Below, in pieces: positions 5,193-56,946 of a stretch of DNA of 64,000 nucleotides. The notes beneath the pieces were generated by a model. It saw only the letters and a program-made list of their open reading frames with translations. It searched no databases and was not told the origin of the DNA. The DNA is from a virus. Each line of letters begins with the position of its first letter. The first letter of the stretch is position 1. The translations under genes were made by a program, and so were the position numbers. The stretch covers positions 1 through 64,000 of the IMG/VR virus record IMGVR_UViG_3300045747_000276, one strand, 5' to 3'.

Positions 5193-7736
5193 ATGACACG
5201 TTTTATTGAACCCTTCGCAGAAGAAATCTGGAATCAAACATACAAAGATCATAATGACAAAGACATTAATGACAATCTACGAAGAGTTGCTAAAGCAGTA
5301 GCTTCGGTAGAGACAACTGAGATTGATAAAATCAAATGGGGGCAATTGTTTTATGATTTATTGACGGATTTTAAGGGTACTTGTGGTGGAAGAACATATT
5401 CAAACGCTGGTACAGAATGGAAGGGAACAACGCTATTAAACTGTTTTGTTTCACCTAGATCGACCTCAGACATTGATTCATTAGACGTTATCATTGACGA
5501 TCTGAAAAATCAGGCATTCACTCTAAAATCAGAGGGTGGTTGGGGTCAGAATTTCAGCTGGATCCGTCCTAGAGGTTCATTTATTGCTGGTGTTGGTGTT
5601 GAGACACCAGGTGCAGTAAAGTACATGGAGCTTTACGACAAAGCATCAGAAATCATTACTGCTGGATCAGGTAAAAAGAGCACAAATAAGAAGTCCAAAG
5701 GTAAGATCCGCAAGGGTGCTATGATGGGTGTTCTAGACGTGTGGCATCCAGATATTGTTGAATTTGTTACTGCCAAACAGAGTTCTGGTAGACTGACAAA
5801 GTTTAACATATCAGTTAATTTCACAAATGAATTTATGCAACGGTTGGATAAAATCAATGAGTTGAATCCTATTGATGACGCAGTTGAGATTGCAAAATTA
5901 GATGAATGGGAATTGAAATTTCCTGACACTTCATTTGAAAAGTACAAGAATGAATGGGACGGCAATATAAAGACTTGGGAATCTAATGGGTACCCAATTG
6001 AAAAATATCAAACTATCTCTGTTAAGTGGTTGTGGAATTTGGTTATGGAATCCACATATAACAGAGCAGAACCTGGTGTTCTATTCTTAGATAGAGCCAA
6101 CGAGTTCAATCCATTGTATTATGGTGAAACGATCATAGCAACAAATCCTTGTGGTGAACAAACTCTGGCTCCAGGTGGTGTTTGCTGCCTGGGGTCATTG
6201 AACCTGACACAGTTTATTTCAGCAGATAATGAATTTGATCTTGTTAAGTTGACAAAATACACCAAGATTATGGTTCGGTTCTTAGATAATGTAAATGAAT
6301 ATTCAAATGCACCTCTACCAGAATACATTGATTCTATGCGTAACAAACGTCGTATTGGTATTGGTGTTCTAGGTTGGGGATCTGCATTGTTCATGCTTAA
6401 AACTAGATTCGCATCCCCTGCTGCTGCGGTTTTGCGTGATCAGGTCATGAGCACTATTGCCAAGGCATCATATGAAGCATCTATTGATTTGGCAATAGAA
6501 AAAGGCATGTTTAAATACTGTGACCCATCAAAACATGCAGCAGGCAAATTTGTAAGTTCAATTGGTCTATCTGCAGGTTATATGAAGAAGTTGACGACAA
6601 CAGGAATTCGCAATAGTTCTCTGCTGTCTATCCAACCAACAGGGAACACAGGTATTTTAGCCAATATGGTATCCGGCGGATTAGAACCAATCTTTATGCC
6701 TGAATATGTTAGAACAGTAACAGTGGGCAAAGTGCCAGATGATATGCTATCATTTACACCAAAGTGGTATGAAGGTGCATGGCAAGAAACAGACGTATTT
6801 AAATTCACTAAGGAAGGTGATGAAGAAATTTTGAAAGCTGTTGTAGATGGTACAACATACAAAATTGATAAAAATCGTGGATTGACAAAAGAAGTTGCTT
6901 GTATTGATTATGGTGTTCGTTGGTTAAAAGACAACAATCTATGGGAAGAAAACGCAGCTTGGGCAGCAACAGCCCTTAATGGTCTCACCGCAGAAGATCA
7001 TCTGAATGATTTGATTGGGTTCGCTCGCTGGGTGGATTCGGCAATGTCAAAAACAATCAATGTACCTAATGATTATTCGTTTGAAGATTTTAAAAACATC
7101 TATATGACTGCTTATCATTCAGGTGTGGTAAAAGGTGTTACAACATATAGGTCAGGTACTATGACAGCTGTTTTGTCATCAAAAGAGAGCACCACTAATG
7201 GATATGATGAAGAAGTCATTTTAGACACAGTCAAAATGTCAGACTCAGCAGATGCATCAATGAAGGTTCTTAGGGCAGAAGGTAGGAAATGGTACTTGAC
7301 AGTGGTCTGGAATGAAACTAAGAGCAGGCCACAAGCATTGTTCGTTCATACCAATCATCACGAGAAGACTGTACCAACGCACGATGCCTCTGACAAGATG
7401 ATTCAACTTGCTAGGGACAAAGGAATTCCACAAAAGTTCATTGATGATGTAGAATCCAAAGTGTCGTCTGATACAAATACTACAAAGTTGACACGAATTA
7501 TTTCATTGCTGTTACGGCATGGTGTGTTGATCAAGAATATTGTGGCAGTGCTCGACAGAGTAGATGGTGTATTTGTTGGAACCTTCTTGTTTCAGATCAA
7601 GAAATTCCTAAGCTCTTTTATCAAAGACGGCGAGAAGGTTGAAGGTGAGCTTTGTCGAGAATGTGGATCAGATAAAGTTGTTTTCCGTGAGGGTTGCAAA
7701 ATCTGTGTTTCTTGTGGCTCGAGTAGGTGCGGGTGA
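5193..7736 (+). CDS. nrdJ: class II (adenosylcobalamin) ribonucleotide reductase
   Basis: An 847-residue single-chain reductase that makes deoxynucleotides. LLNCFVSP (Cys84), NPCGEQ (318-323, with Cys320 and Glu322 at the radical site), and a C-terminal cysteine-rich zinc ribbon (CRECGSDK to CGSSRCG) are those of NrdJ. No small subunit gene is adjacent, consistent with class II. This B12-dependent class is common in marine phages and removes the need for oxygen or a tyrosyl radical. The next gene starts within its stop (TGATG). Confidence 0.9.
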   Translation: MTRFIEPFAEEIWNQTYKDHNDKDINDNLRRVAKAVASVETTEIDKIKWGQLFYDLLTDFKGTCGGRTYSNAGTEWKGTTLLNCFVSPRSTSDIDSLDVIIDDLKNQAFTLKSEGGWGQNFSWIRPRGSFIAGVGVETPGAVKYMELYDKASEIITAGSGKKSTNKKSKGKIRKGAMMGVLDVWHPDIVEFVTAKQSSGRLTKFNISVNFTNEFMQRLDKINELNPIDDAVEIAKLDEWELKFPDTSFEKYKNEWDGNIKTWESNGYPIEKYQTISVKWLWNLVMESTYNRAEPGVLFLDRANEFNPLYYGETIIATNPCGEQTLAPGGVCCLGSLNLTQFISADNEFDLVKLTKYTKIMVRFLDNVNEYSNAPLPEYIDSMRNKRRIGIGVLGWGSALFMLKTRFASPAAAVLRDQVMSTIAKASYEASIDLAIEKGMFKYCDPSKHAAGKFVSSIGLSAGYMKKLTTTGIRNSSLLSIQPTGNTGILANMVSGGLEPIFMPEYVRTVTVGKVPDDMLSFTPKWYEGAWQETDVFKFTKEGDEEILKAVVDGTTYKIDKNRGLTKEVACIDYGVRWLKDNNLWEENAAWAATALNGLTAEDHLNDLIGFARWVDSAMSKTINVPNDYSFEDFKNIYMTAYHSGVVKGVTTYRSGTMTAVLSSKESTTNGYDEEVILDTVKMSDSADASMKVLRAEGRKWYLTVVWNETKSRPQALFVHTNHHEKTVPTHDASDKMIQLARDKGIPQKFIDDVESKVSSDTNTTKLTRIISLLLRHGVLIKNIVAVLDRVDGVFVGTFLFQIKKFLSSFIKDGEKVEGELCRECGSDKVVFREGCKICVSCGSSRCG

Positions 7737-29004: not shown

Positions 29005-29534
29005 GTAAACATGCCCACATTATGATAGACACTGAGACACTGAGCCAGCATAAAAATGCTGTTATTGTGTCAATAGGTGCATGTAAGTTCTCCTTTGAAA
29101 AGGGGATCTTCGATGAATTTTATATCAACATTGATGCCAAAGATTCAAAGAAACACGGACTCCACATTGATCAGAGCACAATTGATTGGTGGATGAAGCA
29201 GGATAAGGCAGCTCGCAATGCGTGGATGGTTGATCCTCAACCATTGAAATTTGCAATGGGAGAATTGACAAATTGGATTGGTGACGCGAATCATAACTTT
29301 TGGGCACACGGTGCATCATTCGACTATCCTATCCTAGAGAGTTCATGGGAAGCGGTCGGAATGAAACCTCAGTGGAAATATTGGAATCTAAATGATTCTA
29401 GAACCATTATGAACATTGCTGGTATAAACAATAAGACTCTTAGGAGTAATGATGATACTGTTTACCACAATGCATTGGAAGATTCCAAAGCACAAACAAA
29501 GGTTTTGATTGAGTTATTGAAGGATATAATGTAA
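28995..29534 (+). CDS. DEDDh 3'-5' exonuclease (DexA/Rv2179c-like)
   Basis: 179 residues. HIMIDTET (Asp, Glu), WAHGASFDYPIL (Asp) and YHNALEDSKAQ (His, Asp) give the DEDDh set; STIDWWMKQ resembles T4 DexA. It degrades DNA or RNA from the 3' end. It sits between folE and dpdA with overlapping ends. Confidence 0.8.
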   Translation: MALSKHAHIMIDTETLSQHKNAVIVSIGACKFSFEKGIFDEFYINIDAKDSKKHGLHIDQSTIDWWMKQDKAARNAWMVDPQPLKFAMGELTNWIGDANHNFWAHGASFDYPILESSWEAVGMKPQWKYWNLNDSRTIMNIAGINNKTLRSNDDTVYHNALEDSKAQTKVLIELLKDIM

Positions 29535-30745
29535 TGAGTGAACATATTAAAACGCGCTTTCTATTGGCGCTTAGTGGTGGAAGTTTGACGGCAATTAAGA
29601 AGTATGTTTCTGGTAATTGGGAACAGCGCAATCTATCAAAGTCGTTTAAGTTTTATAACAAAGACGCAGATTCTTATTTCTATCACCCAGATTTGCTGTT
29701 CAGTGCATTCCATATGAAACCTATTCTTAAGGGTCGTACAATCTGGGATGTGTTAGAAATCAACAGGAATGAAAAACGAATGATTTTCATCGACTCTGGT
29801 GGTTACTCTATTGCTACAGGTGCAGTGTCTCGAGACAAGTGGACAGACCAGATGGCATTTGACTTATCTGTCGCCAATGGTAATTTGTTCCCCATTCTAG
29901 ATATTCCTGTTACACCCAATGCAGACTTTGATGAGCACCTAAAGATCAGCAAAAACAGTGCACAATTTTACAAGGCAAACAAACCAGGCAACGGTGAGAT
30001 GATTTTGAATGTTGCACACGGTAGACACATTGAAGAAGTTAAGAGGTGGGTTGATTCTATCAGTGAAGTAGAGTTGGATGGTTGGGCTCTAGGTTCAAGT
30101 CACAGAGGAAATCCAAAGGAAATCTTGAAGGGCATGTTCTACATGCTAACATCAGGTGTTCTTGACAAAGCAAAAGCATTCCACGTCTTCGGTGTATCGT
30201 CAGCATCAATGATCATTTATTTTGCAGCAGTTAAGCATGCTATTCGCCGAAACAAGTTGAAGTATAATTTTGATCTTACATTTGATAGTTCATATCCAAT
30301 GAGGACATTCGCATTTGGTCACTTCTTTGCATTCCGCAAGTTTGATGGGTTTGTGAATGTGACCATGACTAACACTGTTGATTGGTCACAATTAAAGGAT
30401 GATGATTTTGCAGATGGGTTCTTTTGTAATTGCCCAGTTTGTTCAAACATCAAGTCTTTCCCATCATTGATGAAGGATGAGAAGTCAGATGAGCGAGGTA
30501 TGTGGGGTTCGTTGCATAATTTGCATGAAATGCTAATGTATAAACGGCAGATTGAGGCTCTGGTAGAAATGTGTATGGATGTAGATGGTCTTGTTGGGAA
30601 CATTTTCCCTGCAACGATTGCTAGGAACATACTGGTTATCCAAGAGGCATTCAACGACATTCCTAATGGTGAGGCAATCATCAATCGTAAATTTGAATAC
30701 AAAGACATTGATGCAGGCAACTCATTGGAAGGATTCTTCGGATGA
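29534..30745 (+). CDS. dpdA: DpdA-like DNA 7-deazaguanine transglycosylase
   Basis: 403 residues related to tRNA-guanine transglycosylase: FIDSGGY with Asp87 (first catalytic Asp), ALGSSHRG, HVFGVSSASM, FDSSYPMRTFAFG with Asp251 at the position of the TGT nucleophile, and CNCPVC for zinc. The context with folE and an amidotransferase-QueC fusion points to the phage DNA form that swaps guanine for a 7-deazaguanine in DNA. It likely protects phage DNA from restriction. Confidence 0.85.
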   Translation: MSEHIKTRFLLALSGGSLTAIKKYVSGNWEQRNLSKSFKFYNKDADSYFYHPDLLFSAFHMKPILKGRTIWDVLEINRNEKRMIFIDSGGYSIATGAVSRDKWTDQMAFDLSVANGNLFPILDIPVTPNADFDEHLKISKNSAQFYKANKPGNGEMILNVAHGRHIEEVKRWVDSISEVELDGWALGSSHRGNPKEILKGMFYMLTSGVLDKAKAFHVFGVSSASMIIYFAAVKHAIRRNKLKYNFDLTFDSSYPMRTFAFGHFFAFRKFDGFVNVTMTNTVDWSQLKDDDFADGFFCNCPVCSNIKSFPSLMKDEKSDERGMWGSLHNLHEMLMYKRQIEALVEMCMDVDGLVGNIFPATIARNILVIQEAFNDIPNGEAIINRKFEYKDIDAGNSLEGFFG

Positions 30746-31996: not shown

Positions 31997-33442
31997 GTGT
32001 GTGGAATAGGTGGTGTATTAAATTTTGGGTCAAATACGTTTGAGGATTATAATGGTTTTCTCAATCAGTTGACACAACGCGGTAGGGACTCTTTAGGTAT
32101 TATGGTATATGACGACCAGGGTCGGGTGTCTACTACTAAGTACCTAGATCAAAAGAGCATAGGAAGTTACTTCCCATTGAACGACATCGTTAAGTTGATG
32201 ATGGTTAATGTTAGAGCGGTGCCCACATCATTCTCAGAGGGTAATGTTAAGATGGAAGATGGTTACCTTCAACCTTATGTTATTCGTGGTGAAGCGTCAC
32301 CCAAGCAACATCGTGCCATAATTCACAATGGCACAATAGCTAATGATGACACTCTAAACAAGACATTCGATTACCTAATCAATGACGACAATGGTGCAGT
32401 GTATTTTGATAGACGGCAAGTTCCTATTGATTCAACTGTATTTTTGAATTATTCCTCTAAGACCCTATGTGATGCTATTCGTGATCAAGAGATAGTCGGT
32501 TCATTTAGTGGGGCTCTGTGGGATGAACCTGAAGCCACAGTAGTGTTGTTTAAAAATTATATGCCATTACATATTATGATTGACTACACTGCCCGGCGTG
32601 TGTGGTGGTCTAATGTAAAAGAAGCACTATATGAGGTGGGTGGGAACGAAGTTGCATATTTTGATGTCCCTGCATATACATCTATTTTTATCCCGTATCA
32701 CCGGACTTTTGATGAAGTTGTGCATATCATCAAACAAGGTATGCGAAAGGGTGGTAACCTCTATGGGAAACAAAAAGCGGAAAAGGCATTAGTTGTTTGC
32801 TCTTCCGGATTGGATTCAACTACAGTTGCAGCTCTCGCTGTAAAGAAATACGGCAAAGACAATGTGACATTGTTGCATTATAACTATGGATGTAAGGCAG
32901 AATCACGGGAACAATTCCGAATTGTTCAAATTGCAGAACGATTAGGTTGTTCCTATAAGATAGTTGACATTAGCACAGTTTTTGCAGGAATGAAGTCCCC
33001 TATTCTAGGTACAAATGGCGACATTAGCAAAGGTGATGCAGGGGTAGAATATGCAAAGGAATGGGTACCAGCACGTAATTTGATTATGATGTCTGTAGCG
33101 TTGGGTGTTGCAGAAGATGGTGGGTTCTCTACAATCCAATTGGGTGCCAACTTGACAGAACAAGCATCATTCCCAGACAACTCATTGGATTTCACAGAGA
33201 AGTTGAATGTATTGAGCGCGTATGCCGTGCAGAATAATGTACGAATCCGGGTTGAAGCACCTCTTGTGAATCTGATGAAACAAGAGATCGTGAAGATTGG
33301 TATTGAAGTGAACACACCTTACGAGTTAACATGGTCTTGCTATCACAATGGAGAAACCCACTGTGGTGAGTGTGCTCCATGCCAGATGAGGAAGCAAGCA
33401 TTTGAAATGAACGGGTTAGTTGACCCGGTGATGAAAGGTTAA
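31997..33442 (+). CDS. queC: amidotransferase-QueC fusion (7-deazaguanine synthesis)
   Basis: 481 residues. The GTG start places a nucleophile Cys2 (MCGIGGV) of a class II glutamine amidotransferase domain; from about residue 265 a PP-loop ATPase with CSSGLDSTT and a C-terminal cysteine set (WSCYHNGETHCGECAPC) is QueC. Such Gat-QueC fusions are known from phages that make archaeosine-type DNA bases, the amidotransferase supplying nitrogen. AAGGAGAA precedes the start. Confidence 0.88.
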   Translation: MCGIGGVLNFGSNTFEDYNGFLNQLTQRGRDSLGIMVYDDQGRVSTTKYLDQKSIGSYFPLNDIVKLMMVNVRAVPTSFSEGNVKMEDGYLQPYVIRGEASPKQHRAIIHNGTIANDDTLNKTFDYLINDDNGAVYFDRRQVPIDSTVFLNYSSKTLCDAIRDQEIVGSFSGALWDEPEATVVLFKNYMPLHIMIDYTARRVWWSNVKEALYEVGGNEVAYFDVPAYTSIFIPYHRTFDEVVHIIKQGMRKGGNLYGKQKAEKALVVCSSGLDSTTVAALAVKKYGKDNVTLLHYNYGCKAESREQFRIVQIAERLGCSYKIVDISTVFAGMKSPILGTNGDISKGDAGVEYAKEWVPARNLIMMSVALGVAEDGGFSTIQLGANLTEQASFPDNSLDFTEKLNVLSAYAVQNNVRIRVEAPLVNLMKQEIVKIGIEVNTPYELTWSCYHNGETHCGECAPCQMRKQAFEMNGLVDPVMKG

Positions 33443-38795: not shown

Positions 38796-39659
38796 ATGCA
38801 AAGCACGATGTTTTTATCAAACCTTACAGTGGTTGATCACGCGTACGTAAATCAATATGGTGATATTGTTGGTGGGTCTTTCAACCCATCATTTGTGGTA
38901 GAAGGTGAAGTAGATGAGAAAGAGCAGGTTGTTATCGACTTTTCTACATGCAAGAAGGATATTAAATCTATCATTGATAGTAAGGAAATCGGTCTAGACC
39001 ACAAATTGTGGATTGGCAATTTTTCAAATTGTTCTGTAGAAGCCACAGCAAATAATGCATCTTATATCATCACAACTCCACAGTGGGTGATTGAAGCACC
39101 AGAGAATGCTGTTAGGTTCGTTGATGAGACATATTATGATGTTGATTCTATTGGTATGGCTATGCAGTCATTTGTTACAAGAGAGTTGCAGAAAAAATAT
39201 CCTACTGTTAATGTTAAAGTTTACAATAATGTAGATGCTCACGGTCTCCCATTTCTAAAAGATAAATCATACTTCAGATATAGTCACGGTCTAAAGAATA
39301 GTACATCTTGGGGCTGTCAGAACATTGCTCACGGTCATTTGAGTTACATATCAATTGTAGGTGAAGATGAAATTGGAGCAAAGGCTCTGTCGCAGAAGAT
39401 CGCTGCAGAGTTAGATGGTATTATGTTTGTGTGGACAGAAAATGAAACACAAACAGGATTGGGGTACACAACTGAACGTGGAGAATTTAAATTAACAGTA
39501 AGAGGTAACCCTAAAATTCAATATTGTACCACTGAAACGACAATTGAGAATTTGGTTGAGATGATTAGTGTTATGTATGCGAAAGATCTAAAATCGATCT
39601 ACGCTGAGCAAATTTATGTGTCAGAAGGTTTAAGCAAAGGAGCGGTATTTTATGTCTAA
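38796..39659 (+). CDS. QueD-like 6-carboxytetrahydropterin synthase
   Basis: 287 residues, more than twice the usual QueD length. The core motifs are present: VIDFSTCKKDIKS, GLDHKLWI, AHGHLSYIS (paired histidines for zinc) and TTETTIENLVEM, ending in EGLSKGAVFYV. It would convert dihydroneopterin triphosphate from FolE. The order and spacing suggest a duplicated or extended form. AAGGAG precedes the ATG. Confidence 0.65.
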   Translation: MQSTMFLSNLTVVDHAYVNQYGDIVGGSFNPSFVVEGEVDEKEQVVIDFSTCKKDIKSIIDSKEIGLDHKLWIGNFSNCSVEATANNASYIITTPQWVIEAPENAVRFVDETYYDVDSIGMAMQSFVTRELQKKYPTVNVKVYNNVDAHGLPFLKDKSYFRYSHGLKNSTSWGCQNIAHGHLSYISIVGEDEIGAKALSQKIAAELDGIMFVWTENETQTGLGYTTERGEFKLTVRGNPKIQYCTTETTIENLVEMISVMYAKDLKSIYAEQIYVSEGLSKGAVFYV

Positions 39660-44293: not shown

Positions 44294-44367
44294 GCCCGGT
44301 TAATTAAAAAGTATAATATTCGCCTGATAAGCGAAATTCAGAGGAGCGTTACCTCTACTGGGTACCA
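44294..44367 (+). tRNA. tRNA-Ile (GAU) with altered T-loop
   Basis: Acceptor GCCCGGT/ACTGGGT, arm TTCGC-CTGATAA-GCGAA, T-arm AGAGG-AGCGTTA-CCTCT, D-loop AAAAAGTA lacking GG, encoded ACCA. Confidence 0.8.
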
Positions 44368-44796: not shown

Positions 44797-44870
44797 AGTG
44801 CATTAGGCTAAAAGAAAACCATGTGTCTCATAAGCACAATTCGATGGAGCGTTACCATCATGCACTACCA
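44797..44870 (+). tRNA. tRNA with CAU anticodon, altered T-loop
   Basis: Acceptor AGTGCAT/ATGCACT, arm TGTGT-CTCATAA-GCACA, T-arm GATGG-AGCGTTA-CCATC, D-loop AAAAGAA, encoded ACCA. Confidence 0.78.
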
Positions 44871-49970: not shown

Positions 49971-50079
49971 TTTGTATTCAATCGCTACAGTGGAACACCG
50001 ATAGCCCCAACAAGTCTCGAGTACGGTAAGGCAGGCCATGAAGGAGGGCGGTTCATGGGTTCAAGTCCCGGAATACAAA
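49971..50079 (+). ncRNA. tRNA-like RNA 3, no CCA
   Basis: TTTGTATTC/GAATACAAA nine-bp stem, GCTA/TAGC arm, CCATGAA/TTCATGG arm and a T-arm (TGGG-TTCAAGT-CCCG) beside the acceptor. 49816-49970 before it contains an AGCGA/TCGCT pair but no gene. Confidence 0.5.
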
Positions 50080-50089
50080 TTTATTTGAA

Positions 50090-50435
50090 TGGTAGTAAAC
50101 TGATCGTAAGAAACGATTGCAACACGGGAGTGCAACTCTCCTCACCTCCACCATAAGAACTCTGAATCTTGCAGCAATGCATGATCAGGTTTGGTACTCC
50201 AGATCCCTCTTGCACGGTAACACCGATAACAAAGACAGATGCACCGAGAGTTCTTTTGATGGGGGTGCCTTAGGATCGACTGCGAAAGAAGTACAATGCA
50301 TTGGCTACTCGTCACAGATAGACGTAAAAAGTAAAACGCAATTAAATGCAAACGACGAAAGATTCGCTTTAGCCGCATAGGCCTAGCGTAAGGAGTTCGA
50401 TGGGTTGTCCTTATAACAGACTCAACCCATCATAA
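50090..50435 (+). ncRNA. ssrA: circularly permuted (two-piece) tmRNA
   Basis: The acceptor piece comes first: T-arm GGGAG-TGCAACT-CTCCT (50126-50142), then CACCTCC-A-CCA (50143-50153). An intervening loop is closed by AAGAACTCT/AGAGTTCTT (50155-50163/50247-50255). The coding piece starts GGGGGTG (50261), which pairs with CACCTCC; it has the tmRNA D-region (GGATCGAC) and a resume frame GCA at 50348 giving ANDERFALAA then TAG (50378). A hairpin GATGGGTTG/CAACCCATC ends it. It would rescue stalled ribosomes. 5' and 3' limits are approximate. Confidence 0.9.
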
Positions 50436-50551
50436 TTGAGTGCGAATCGAAATTGATCCTAACCATGTCGCTCTACCTGCTAAGGGATAAACAATGCTGG
50501 AAACCTTTGACTGTGGTGGTCATTGCACACACCAGTGCAGGGCACTCAATT
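50434..50551 (+). ncRNA. RNA closed by AATTGAGTGC/GCACTCAATT
   Basis: Perfect 10-bp clamp downstream of the tmRNA enclosing TGGTG/CACCA and smaller hairpins; could be the tail of the tmRNA precursor or a separate RNA. Confidence 0.45.
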
Positions 50552-50561
50552 ATTGCAGAAT

Positions 50562-50590
50562 TTGACATCAAAGAATTTGTCATATATAAT
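50562..50590 (+). promoter_or_regulatory. consensus early promoter
   Basis: TTGACA, 17 bases (TCAAAG...), TATAAT, serving 50627. Confidence 0.75.
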
Positions 50591-50626
50591 TCATACATCA
50601 ATTAAATAAACCAAAGGATGTTTGAT

Positions 50627-50803
50627 ATGGCAGCAGTAAATATGAAGGAATGGCATGTGGTAGTTCTTGAGGGTTGCAAGCGCTTGTTTGACAAGGTTTA
50701 TTACAAGGTAGAAGAAGCCCGTGCAGCAGAGAAAGAAAAACGTGTCGAGTATGCTGACCGCATGGCAGCAGGTGAAGTTCGTGTTGTTCGTGAATGGTAT
50801 TAA
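50627..50803 (+). CDS. 58-residue helical protein
   Basis: MAAVNMKEWHVVVLEGCKRL..., charged helix with EEARAAEKEKRVEYADR. ATG 50627 has AAAGG eight bases upstream; an ATG at 50618 overlaps that site. Not recognised. Confidence 0.5.
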   Translation: MAAVNMKEWHVVVLEGCKRLFDKVYYKVEEARAAEKEKRVEYADRMAAGEVRVVREWY

Positions 50804-55788: not shown

Positions 55789-56946
55789 ATGAAAATTGTT
55801 CGATATCCAGTAACCAATACAAAACGTCTGTTTAGTGATGACTACAATTATCACTTTAATCAGAAAACAGGTGCATTCGCCAGATGGGGTGCAACACTAG
55901 AAGATGATCCTAAGGTAGGAAAACTGGAAATTTTCGACCTTGAGGTATCAGAAGAATGCAATGGTATTCCTGATGTTGGGTCTAGTATTGCCGTTCCCTG
56001 TAAACATTGTTACAAGAGCAATACTAAATCTGGTCGAAATATGTCCTTTGAAACATTTAAGAACATTTTCGATAAATTGCCTGAATCCCTAACCCAGATA
56101 GCATTTGGTATTGGTGATATGGACGCAAACCCAGACTTAGTTAAAATGTTTGATTACTGCAGGGTCAATAAACACAATCCGGGTGTAGTTCCGAATTTAA
56201 CTATTAATGGGTGGGGATTGACTGACGAATGGGCAGATATACTGGCAGAAAAATGTGGTGCCGCTGCAGTTAGCAGGTATGATAATAAGGATGTGTGTTA
56301 TGATGCAGTTAAGAAGTTGACTGACCGTGGCATGGCGCAGGTTAACATTCACGCTGTGATTGCTAATGAGAATGTAGAACAATGCTATGAATTAATAAAT
56401 GATGCAATTTCTGACCCTCGTCTAAGTAAGATGAAAGCTATTGTTTTCCTCACGCTTAAACCAAAAGGCAAACGCAATACATGGACAACAATTAAAGATG
56501 TCACTGTTTATCGCAACTTGGTTTCTTATGCCATGGATAGAGACATTGGAATTGGGTTTGATTCTTGTAGTGCACCAACATTCCTTGCAGCGATGAAGGA
56601 TCATCCGAGGTTTGATTTATTTAGTCAGTTGAGCGAATCGTGTGAATCCGATCGCTTCAGTGGTTATGCTAATGTGGACGGAATATGGAGTCATTGTTCA
56701 TTCACTGAGGGTCTTCCAAATTGGGGGACAGTTGACCTTAAAACGATAACAGATTTTGATAAAGAAGTTTGGAATGCACCCGAGGTAAAACGATTTCGTG
56801 AATGCCTTACCTGCCAAGATAACTCTCATATTGGGGATGAAGTATATTTGTGCCCAGTATATGATTTGTACTCAGAAGAAGTGGGTAGAGCAAAAAGTGC
56901 AGTTGTTAAATCTGACCGACGGGTCATTGAAATTATGAGTGCTTAA
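55789..56946 (+). CDS. radical SAM protein
   Basis: 385 residues. Cys-x13-Cys-x2-Cys at about residues 57-74 (ECNGI...PCKHCYK) is a variant of the radical SAM cluster site, with FGIGDMDANPDL as the SAM-binding turn; C-terminal cysteines (FDSCSAP, CLTC, YLCP) suggest a second cluster region. The gene precedes a cysteine-rich protein and three paralogues with a shared N-terminal motif, so peptide modification is a possibility. Confidence 0.75.
   Translation: MKIVRYPVTNTKRLFSDDYNYHFNQKTGAFARWGATLEDDPKVGKLEIFDLEVSEECNGIPDVGSSIAVPCKHCYKSNTKSGRNMSFETFKNIFDKLPESLTQIAFGIGDMDANPDLVKMFDYCRVNKHNPGVVPNLTINGWGLTDEWADILAEKCGAAAVSRYDNKDVCYDAVKKLTDRGMAQVNIHAVIANENVEQCYELINDAISDPRLSKMKAIVFLTLKPKGKRNTWTTIKDVTVYRNLVSYAMDRDIGIGFDSCSAPTFLAAMKDHPRFDLFSQLSESCESDRFSGYANVDGIWSHCSFTEGLPNWGTVDLKTITDFDKEVWNAPEVKRFRECLTCQDNSHIGDEVYLCPVYDLYSEEVGRAKSAVVKSDRRVIEIMSA

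Follow-up and report, generated by a model that had tools for sequence, protein, structure and literature searches.

A tRNA array in an IMG/VR virus record raised the question of whether a phage encodes a tmRNA in circularly permuted gene order and, if so, where the gene came from and what it does. The window analysed here (64,000 nucleotides) is almost all of the 64,160-base record. ARAGORN found 29 tRNA genes in it, 28 of them at 42.8-52.8 kb, around the tmRNA. Rfam identified two more tRNA genes (44294-44364 and 44797-44867) that ARAGORN missed, which brings the array to about 30 tRNAs. The tmRNA has tRNA genes and ORFs of phage type on either side. Neighbouring gene families include an RNA ligase, an exonuclease, a primase-like protein and a homing endonuclease, and RNR and queuosine-pathway genes are also present.

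The permuted tmRNA gene and its two predicted pieces

The initial annotation had called for a covariance search. When the whole window was scanned with Rfam, RF04321 (tmRNA_permuted) matched at 50091-50380 with 91.7 bits (E 2.2e-16), about twice the gathering cut-off of 47 bits and the top RNA match of the whole window. The score was lower than those of the six relatives scored (114-151 bits). RF01850 (beta_tmRNA) aligned over its full model length (50071-50432) with 74.5 bits, short of the 84 bits that this family requires; the window tmRNA is thus beta-like without being filed as a beta_tmRNA member. ARAGORN, run on the window, did not call a permuted tmRNA gene. The window copy belongs to RF04321 by its score, the order of the pieces with CCA upstream, the acceptor pairing, the G3.U70 wobble, the tag with its stop, and P2. 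Given these two model matches, the spacer clamp and the post-tag hairpin, the segment from 50091 to about 50431 is very probably a phage-encoded ssrA in circularly permuted order. This upholds the two-piece reading of the initial annotation, whose refuting outcome, covariance models without a hit, did not occur, and the resume frame, acceptor strands, T-arm and clamp each lay where it had placed them.

All elements of the gene are on the plus strand. In DNA order the 3' part of the tRNA comes first, followed by a 107-nt spacer and then the 5' acceptor strand. The acceptor piece (50091-50153, from the RF04321 match and the sequence; the beta_tmRNA match begins at 50071) comprises the 5' strands of P2, the T-arm, the 3' acceptor strand and an encoded CCA. 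The T-arm (50126-50142) has five pairs, with the stem GGGAG/CTCCT and the variant loop UGCAACU; this loop adjoining CRCCUCCACCA was present in at least 119 viral stretches, many of which are permuted tmRNAs. The 3' acceptor strand (50143-50153) consists of CACCUCC (50143-50149), A73 and CCA (ACCA, 50150-50153). It pairs at 7 of 7 positions with the complementary 5' acceptor strand GGGGGUG (50261-50267), including a G3.U70 wobble (G50263.U50147), the identity element by which AlaRS recognizes alanine acceptors. A predicted RNase P site precedes 50261.

The coding piece (50261-50431) carries the 5' acceptor strand, a D-like loop, the 3' strands of P2, the tag and the post-tag hairpin. P2 joins the two pieces through an outer helix of 5 bp (50091-50095/50305-50309) and an inner helix of 5 bp (50117-50121/50281-50285), both located by inspection; a large internal loop interrupts it and three pairs are non-canonical in the model alignment. 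P2 is followed by a small hairpin, CGUC/GACG (50310-50324), which is modelled in both RF04321 and RF01850. The tag ANDERFALAA, within the RF04321 match, is read from the resume codon GCA at 50348 to the stop TAG at 50380. Downstream, a post-tag hairpin (50399-50431) is formed by GATGGGTTG (50399-50407) and CAACCCATC (50423-50431), and GUAAGGA (50388-50394) can pair with UCCUUAU (50408-50414) in its loop, giving a pseudoknot that spans 50388-50431. Relatives keep the layout of hairpin and pseudoknot, and their stem sequences differ. Because this conserved hairpin closes at 50431, the coding piece likely ends at about that position; the gene end of 50435 in the initial annotation was nearly right.

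The spacer helix and reading frames within spacers

The intervening sequence (50154-50260, 107 nt) is not filled by an ORF, and we predict that it is removed during maturation. Its clamp arms are AAGAACTCT (50155-50163) and AGAGTTCTT (50247-50255), and the leader UGAU (50257-50260) stands immediately ahead of the 5' acceptor strand. The earlier description of a loop clamped by these arms was confirmed by the relatives, in which the helix covaries in a single register. In the window itself, a nine-pair clamp near the observed register arose in only 0.04% of shuffled spacers. In a set of 70 distinct spacers from phages, the partner of position k is position -(5+k), in one fixed register. Pairing at spacer positions k = 1 to 7 was 94-100%, a single position could show as many as six standard pair types, and mean pairing in this register was 81% compared to 35-49% in other registers. 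UGAU was the 4-nt leader ahead of the 5' G in 60 of the 70 spacers.

The same helix, in the same register, is often seen in permuted precursors of bacteria when the spacer is 24-55 nt long. For this reason we rejected the view that the clamp is a phage-only feature; it is conserved in permuted pre-tmRNA generally, with a longer form in phages. Several Rhodocyclaceae copies have a spacer of only 4 nt and no clamp. The literature searched did not mention the clamp, which the older work of Sharkady and Williams (2004) may describe.

In related IMG/VR phage contigs, mutually unrelated ORFs fill the long spacers, with starts immediately downstream of TAAGGA. This Shine-Dalgarno sequence is the 5' arm of the clamp, adjoining CCA (AAAAGGA in L044). 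Many of these ORFs ended at the leader UGA (L099, with 123 aa, L566, L543, L034, the L009/L056/L506 group and L111), and others ran on into the 5' part of the tmRNA (L476, L515, L487, L510 and L044). C-termini such as KVSL or KSL are common to the leader-ending ORFs because the 3' arm of the clamp encodes them. An ORF in the window's own spacer was considered and rejected, as only six codons precede the leader UGA.

Shuffled spacers yielded such an ORF with a probability of 0 to 0.04 each for the spacers tested. Over the whole frame of the L476/L515 pair, nine codons differed synonymously and six non-synonymously; one of the six (AGC/AAG) was in the spacer and five were in the tmRNA overlap. 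Spacers open throughout in the frame of the leader UGA numbered 18, compared to 13.3 expected, which is not clearly above chance overall, and only long open spacers carry weight as ORF evidence. No family was recognized at a meaningful level for the spacer ORF proteins, and the two that were searched in the phage collection gave no match. The reading frames suggest that these spacer ORFs are small nested genes, with predicted translation. We propose tentatively, as a possibility that we would not yet favor, that such permuted tmRNAs are an old, largely phage-borne population whose conserved clamped spacer can also carry a small protein gene, that maturation of the tmRNA would compete with translation of that gene, and that the window copy would be an ORF-less member.

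Relatives, origin and comparison with known systems

Relatives were sought with a degenerate pattern for the tag. The ANDERFALAA pattern was found in at least 119 viral and at least 120 bacterial stretches. The 80 bacterial matches listed were betaproteobacterial wherever the title was informative, with one exception titled Pantoea. A structural rule (T-arm, CCA, 7 of 7 acceptor pairs and the tag downstream) gave 105 distinct permuted copies, the window's included, in loci other than those fetched as bacterial permuted ones; the set includes a few bacterial contigs (L144, L155 and L222). About 100 further distinct copies were retrieved, nearly all in phage contigs. ARAGORN independently called 100 of the 105 as permuted tmRNA, and the window copy was among the five that it missed. 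A crude test of end pairing assigned most bacterial loci with the ANDERFALAA tag to the one-piece type. Around a Rhodocyclaceae genome, sampling of its family gave permuted copies in 40 of 101 genomes, and sampling of its order in 17 of 300 at the cut-off.

The window copy had a best identity of 62% to any fetched homologue, bacterial or phage. DNA searches of the phage collection gave no match for window positions 50041-50640 or 20001-44000, nor for the coding piece of one relative. A search for related loci through the neighbouring primase-like protein found none.

Trees of 73 and 92 rows were built, with clade constraint tests. The window row was a long branch (0.56-0.85) and fell in a 52-row group with beta-type rows (support 89/85); a grouping with alphaproteobacterial rows was not rejected (p-AU 0.44). 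In the free tree, bacterial copies were nested among phage copies. A phage-only clade was not rejected (p-AU 0.34 and 0.28), and therefore the nesting supports no claim on the direction of transfer. Judged by its sequence, the window copy looks betaproteobacterial in its tag and covariance model. Capture from an alphaproteobacterial, betaproteobacterial or cyanobacterial host, as the initial annotation had proposed, was not demonstrated, given the long branch, phage and bacterial copies that do not separate and constraint tests that do not decide.

The high novelty first attached to a permuted tmRNA in a phage did not hold, since a phage two-piece tmRNA was reported in 2022 and many more copies were retrieved here. 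That report described phage Melnitz and counted 53 cases, most of them marine or aquatic, in 18,146 phage genomes (PMC9004378). The tmRNA database contains 79 unique phage sequences when every form is counted (PMC11915505), and huge phages have been reported with tmRNA and SmpB (PMC7162821). The window gene is a diverged new example of the already known phage two-piece tmRNA. Like Melnitz and the other marine phages, it is a permuted ssrA in a tailed-phage genome from which two pieces are inferred (PMC9004378). The Melnitz tmRNA differs in being alphaproteobacteria/SAR11-like, with a glutamine riboswitch nearby (PMC9004378), whereas the tag and post-tag hairpin of the window copy are of the betaproteobacterial type and its surroundings are an array of about 30 tRNA genes.

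With the betaproteobacterial two-piece tmRNA (RF01850, e.g., Rhodocyclaceae) the window copy shares gene order, the ANDERFALAA tag, the post-tag hairpin and a full-length model match. It differs in scoring 74.5 bits against the cut-off of 84 and in its spacer of 107 nt; spacers in the examined Rhodocyclaceae copies measure about 4-48 nt. The ssrA genes of mycobacteriophage Bxz1 and Bacillus phage G, which we take to encode one-piece tmRNAs in standard gene order, are unlike the window copy in that respect. What they share with it is that ssrA is phage-borne; both phages are listed with ssrA in PMC4131195.

The locus adds a diverged copy, missed by a standard gene finder, to the few phage two-piece tmRNAs described. 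Together with the approximately 100 relatives it indicates that permuted ssrA is common in environmental phages and that a strongly conserved helix adjoins the processing sites. The alignment of relatives provides a basis for testing spacer removal and phage use of trans-translation.

Proposed function, alternative explanations and neighbouring genes

Charging via G3.U70, use of SmpB, resumption on a tag and proteolysis via an ALAA end are established features of trans-translation. By analogy, the tmRNA would be transcribed within the phage tRNA array, and its spacer would fold as the clamp helix, which covariation in relatives demonstrates, stacked on the acceptor stem. Host RNase P would then cleave before G50261 and 3'-end RNases would trim back as far as CCA50153. 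The acceptor stem and P2 would keep the two resulting pieces, acceptor and coding, together. In known two-piece tmRNA, tRNA-processing enzymes cut the precursor into two pieces that stay paired (PMC11915505, PMC3978253). Host alanyl-tRNA synthetase would charge the product through G3.U70. With host SmpB and EF-Tu, the tmRNA would enter ribosomes stalled on broken mRNA, translation would switch to GCA50348 and append ANDERFALAA, and the ALAA end would mark the product for ClpXP-type proteases. SmpB was not found in the 64 kb record, which is a fragment, and function would therefore need the host protein. The benefit to the phage, on which we can only speculate, might be that ribosomes are kept free while host mRNA is degraded during infection. 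The phage need for ribosome rescue suggested by the initial annotation is likewise no more than an inference.

The lower covariance score, the long branch and the ARAGORN miss would also be expected of a decaying, non-functional permuted pseudogene copied from a host or another phage. We consider this very unlikely because random decay should have broken some of the features that are all intact: the acceptor stem, G3.U70, CCA, the tag frame and its stop, the clamp, the leader, the hairpin and the pseudoknot. The mRNA-like part is complete: its tag is a canonical degron with ALAA at the end, and the post-tag structure is conserved. This likewise makes it very unlikely that the phage RNA acts as a decoy instead of tagging, whether by titrating host SmpB or by altering the activity of host tmRNA, a role that has been proposed for the DS6A RNA, which lacks a tag. 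There is precedent for a decoy in that a DS6A-like RNA with a tRNA domain only inhibits E. coli tmRNA (PMC11915505; PMC4131195).

A fragment of a host chromosomal ssrA, misassembled into the contig or recently transferred, would explain a tag identical to that of many betaproteobacteria. The best identity of 62% among the fetched bacterial and phage copies reveals no recent source, however, phage-type tRNA genes and ORFs lie on both flanks, and host copies with ANDERFALAA are mostly one-piece by the crude test. A host fragment is thus extremely improbable, and a functional phage-encoded permuted ssrA is the reading that we prefer.

Two segments with inverted repeats border the gene. Just upstream (49971-50079) is a tRNA-like remnant with a 9-bp terminal inverted repeat (TTTGTATTC/GAATACAAA), a D-arm-like ATCG...CGAT, a T-arm-like GGGTTCAAGTCCC and about 40 nt in place of the anticodon loop; Rfam gave no tRNA match to it, and it did not fold stably (z +1.1). 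Directly 3' of the tmRNA, an inverted repeat of 12 bp without mismatch (ATAATTGAGTGC/GCACTCAATTAT) encloses a stretch of 122 nt (50432-50553); this segment lacks a T-loop motif and matched nothing in Rfam (fold z -1.75).

The RNR gene (5193-7736) was closest, in the phage collection, to those of uncultured huge phages, with full-length identities of 43% (642 kb phage) and 41% (735 kb phage). Those with the closest RNR (LR756502 and LR756501) had no permuted tmRNA at the RF04321 model. The contig may represent only part of a far larger genome. Elsewhere in the window are TGT-like (29534-30745), QueC-domain (31997-33442), PTPS (QueD-like; 38796-39659) and radical-SAM (55789-56946) proteins, and the QueC-domain protein has end-to-end similarity to phage glutamine-amidotransferase/QueC genes. 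Together these four proteins likely constitute a 7-deazaguanine pathway, which phages use for DNA modification.
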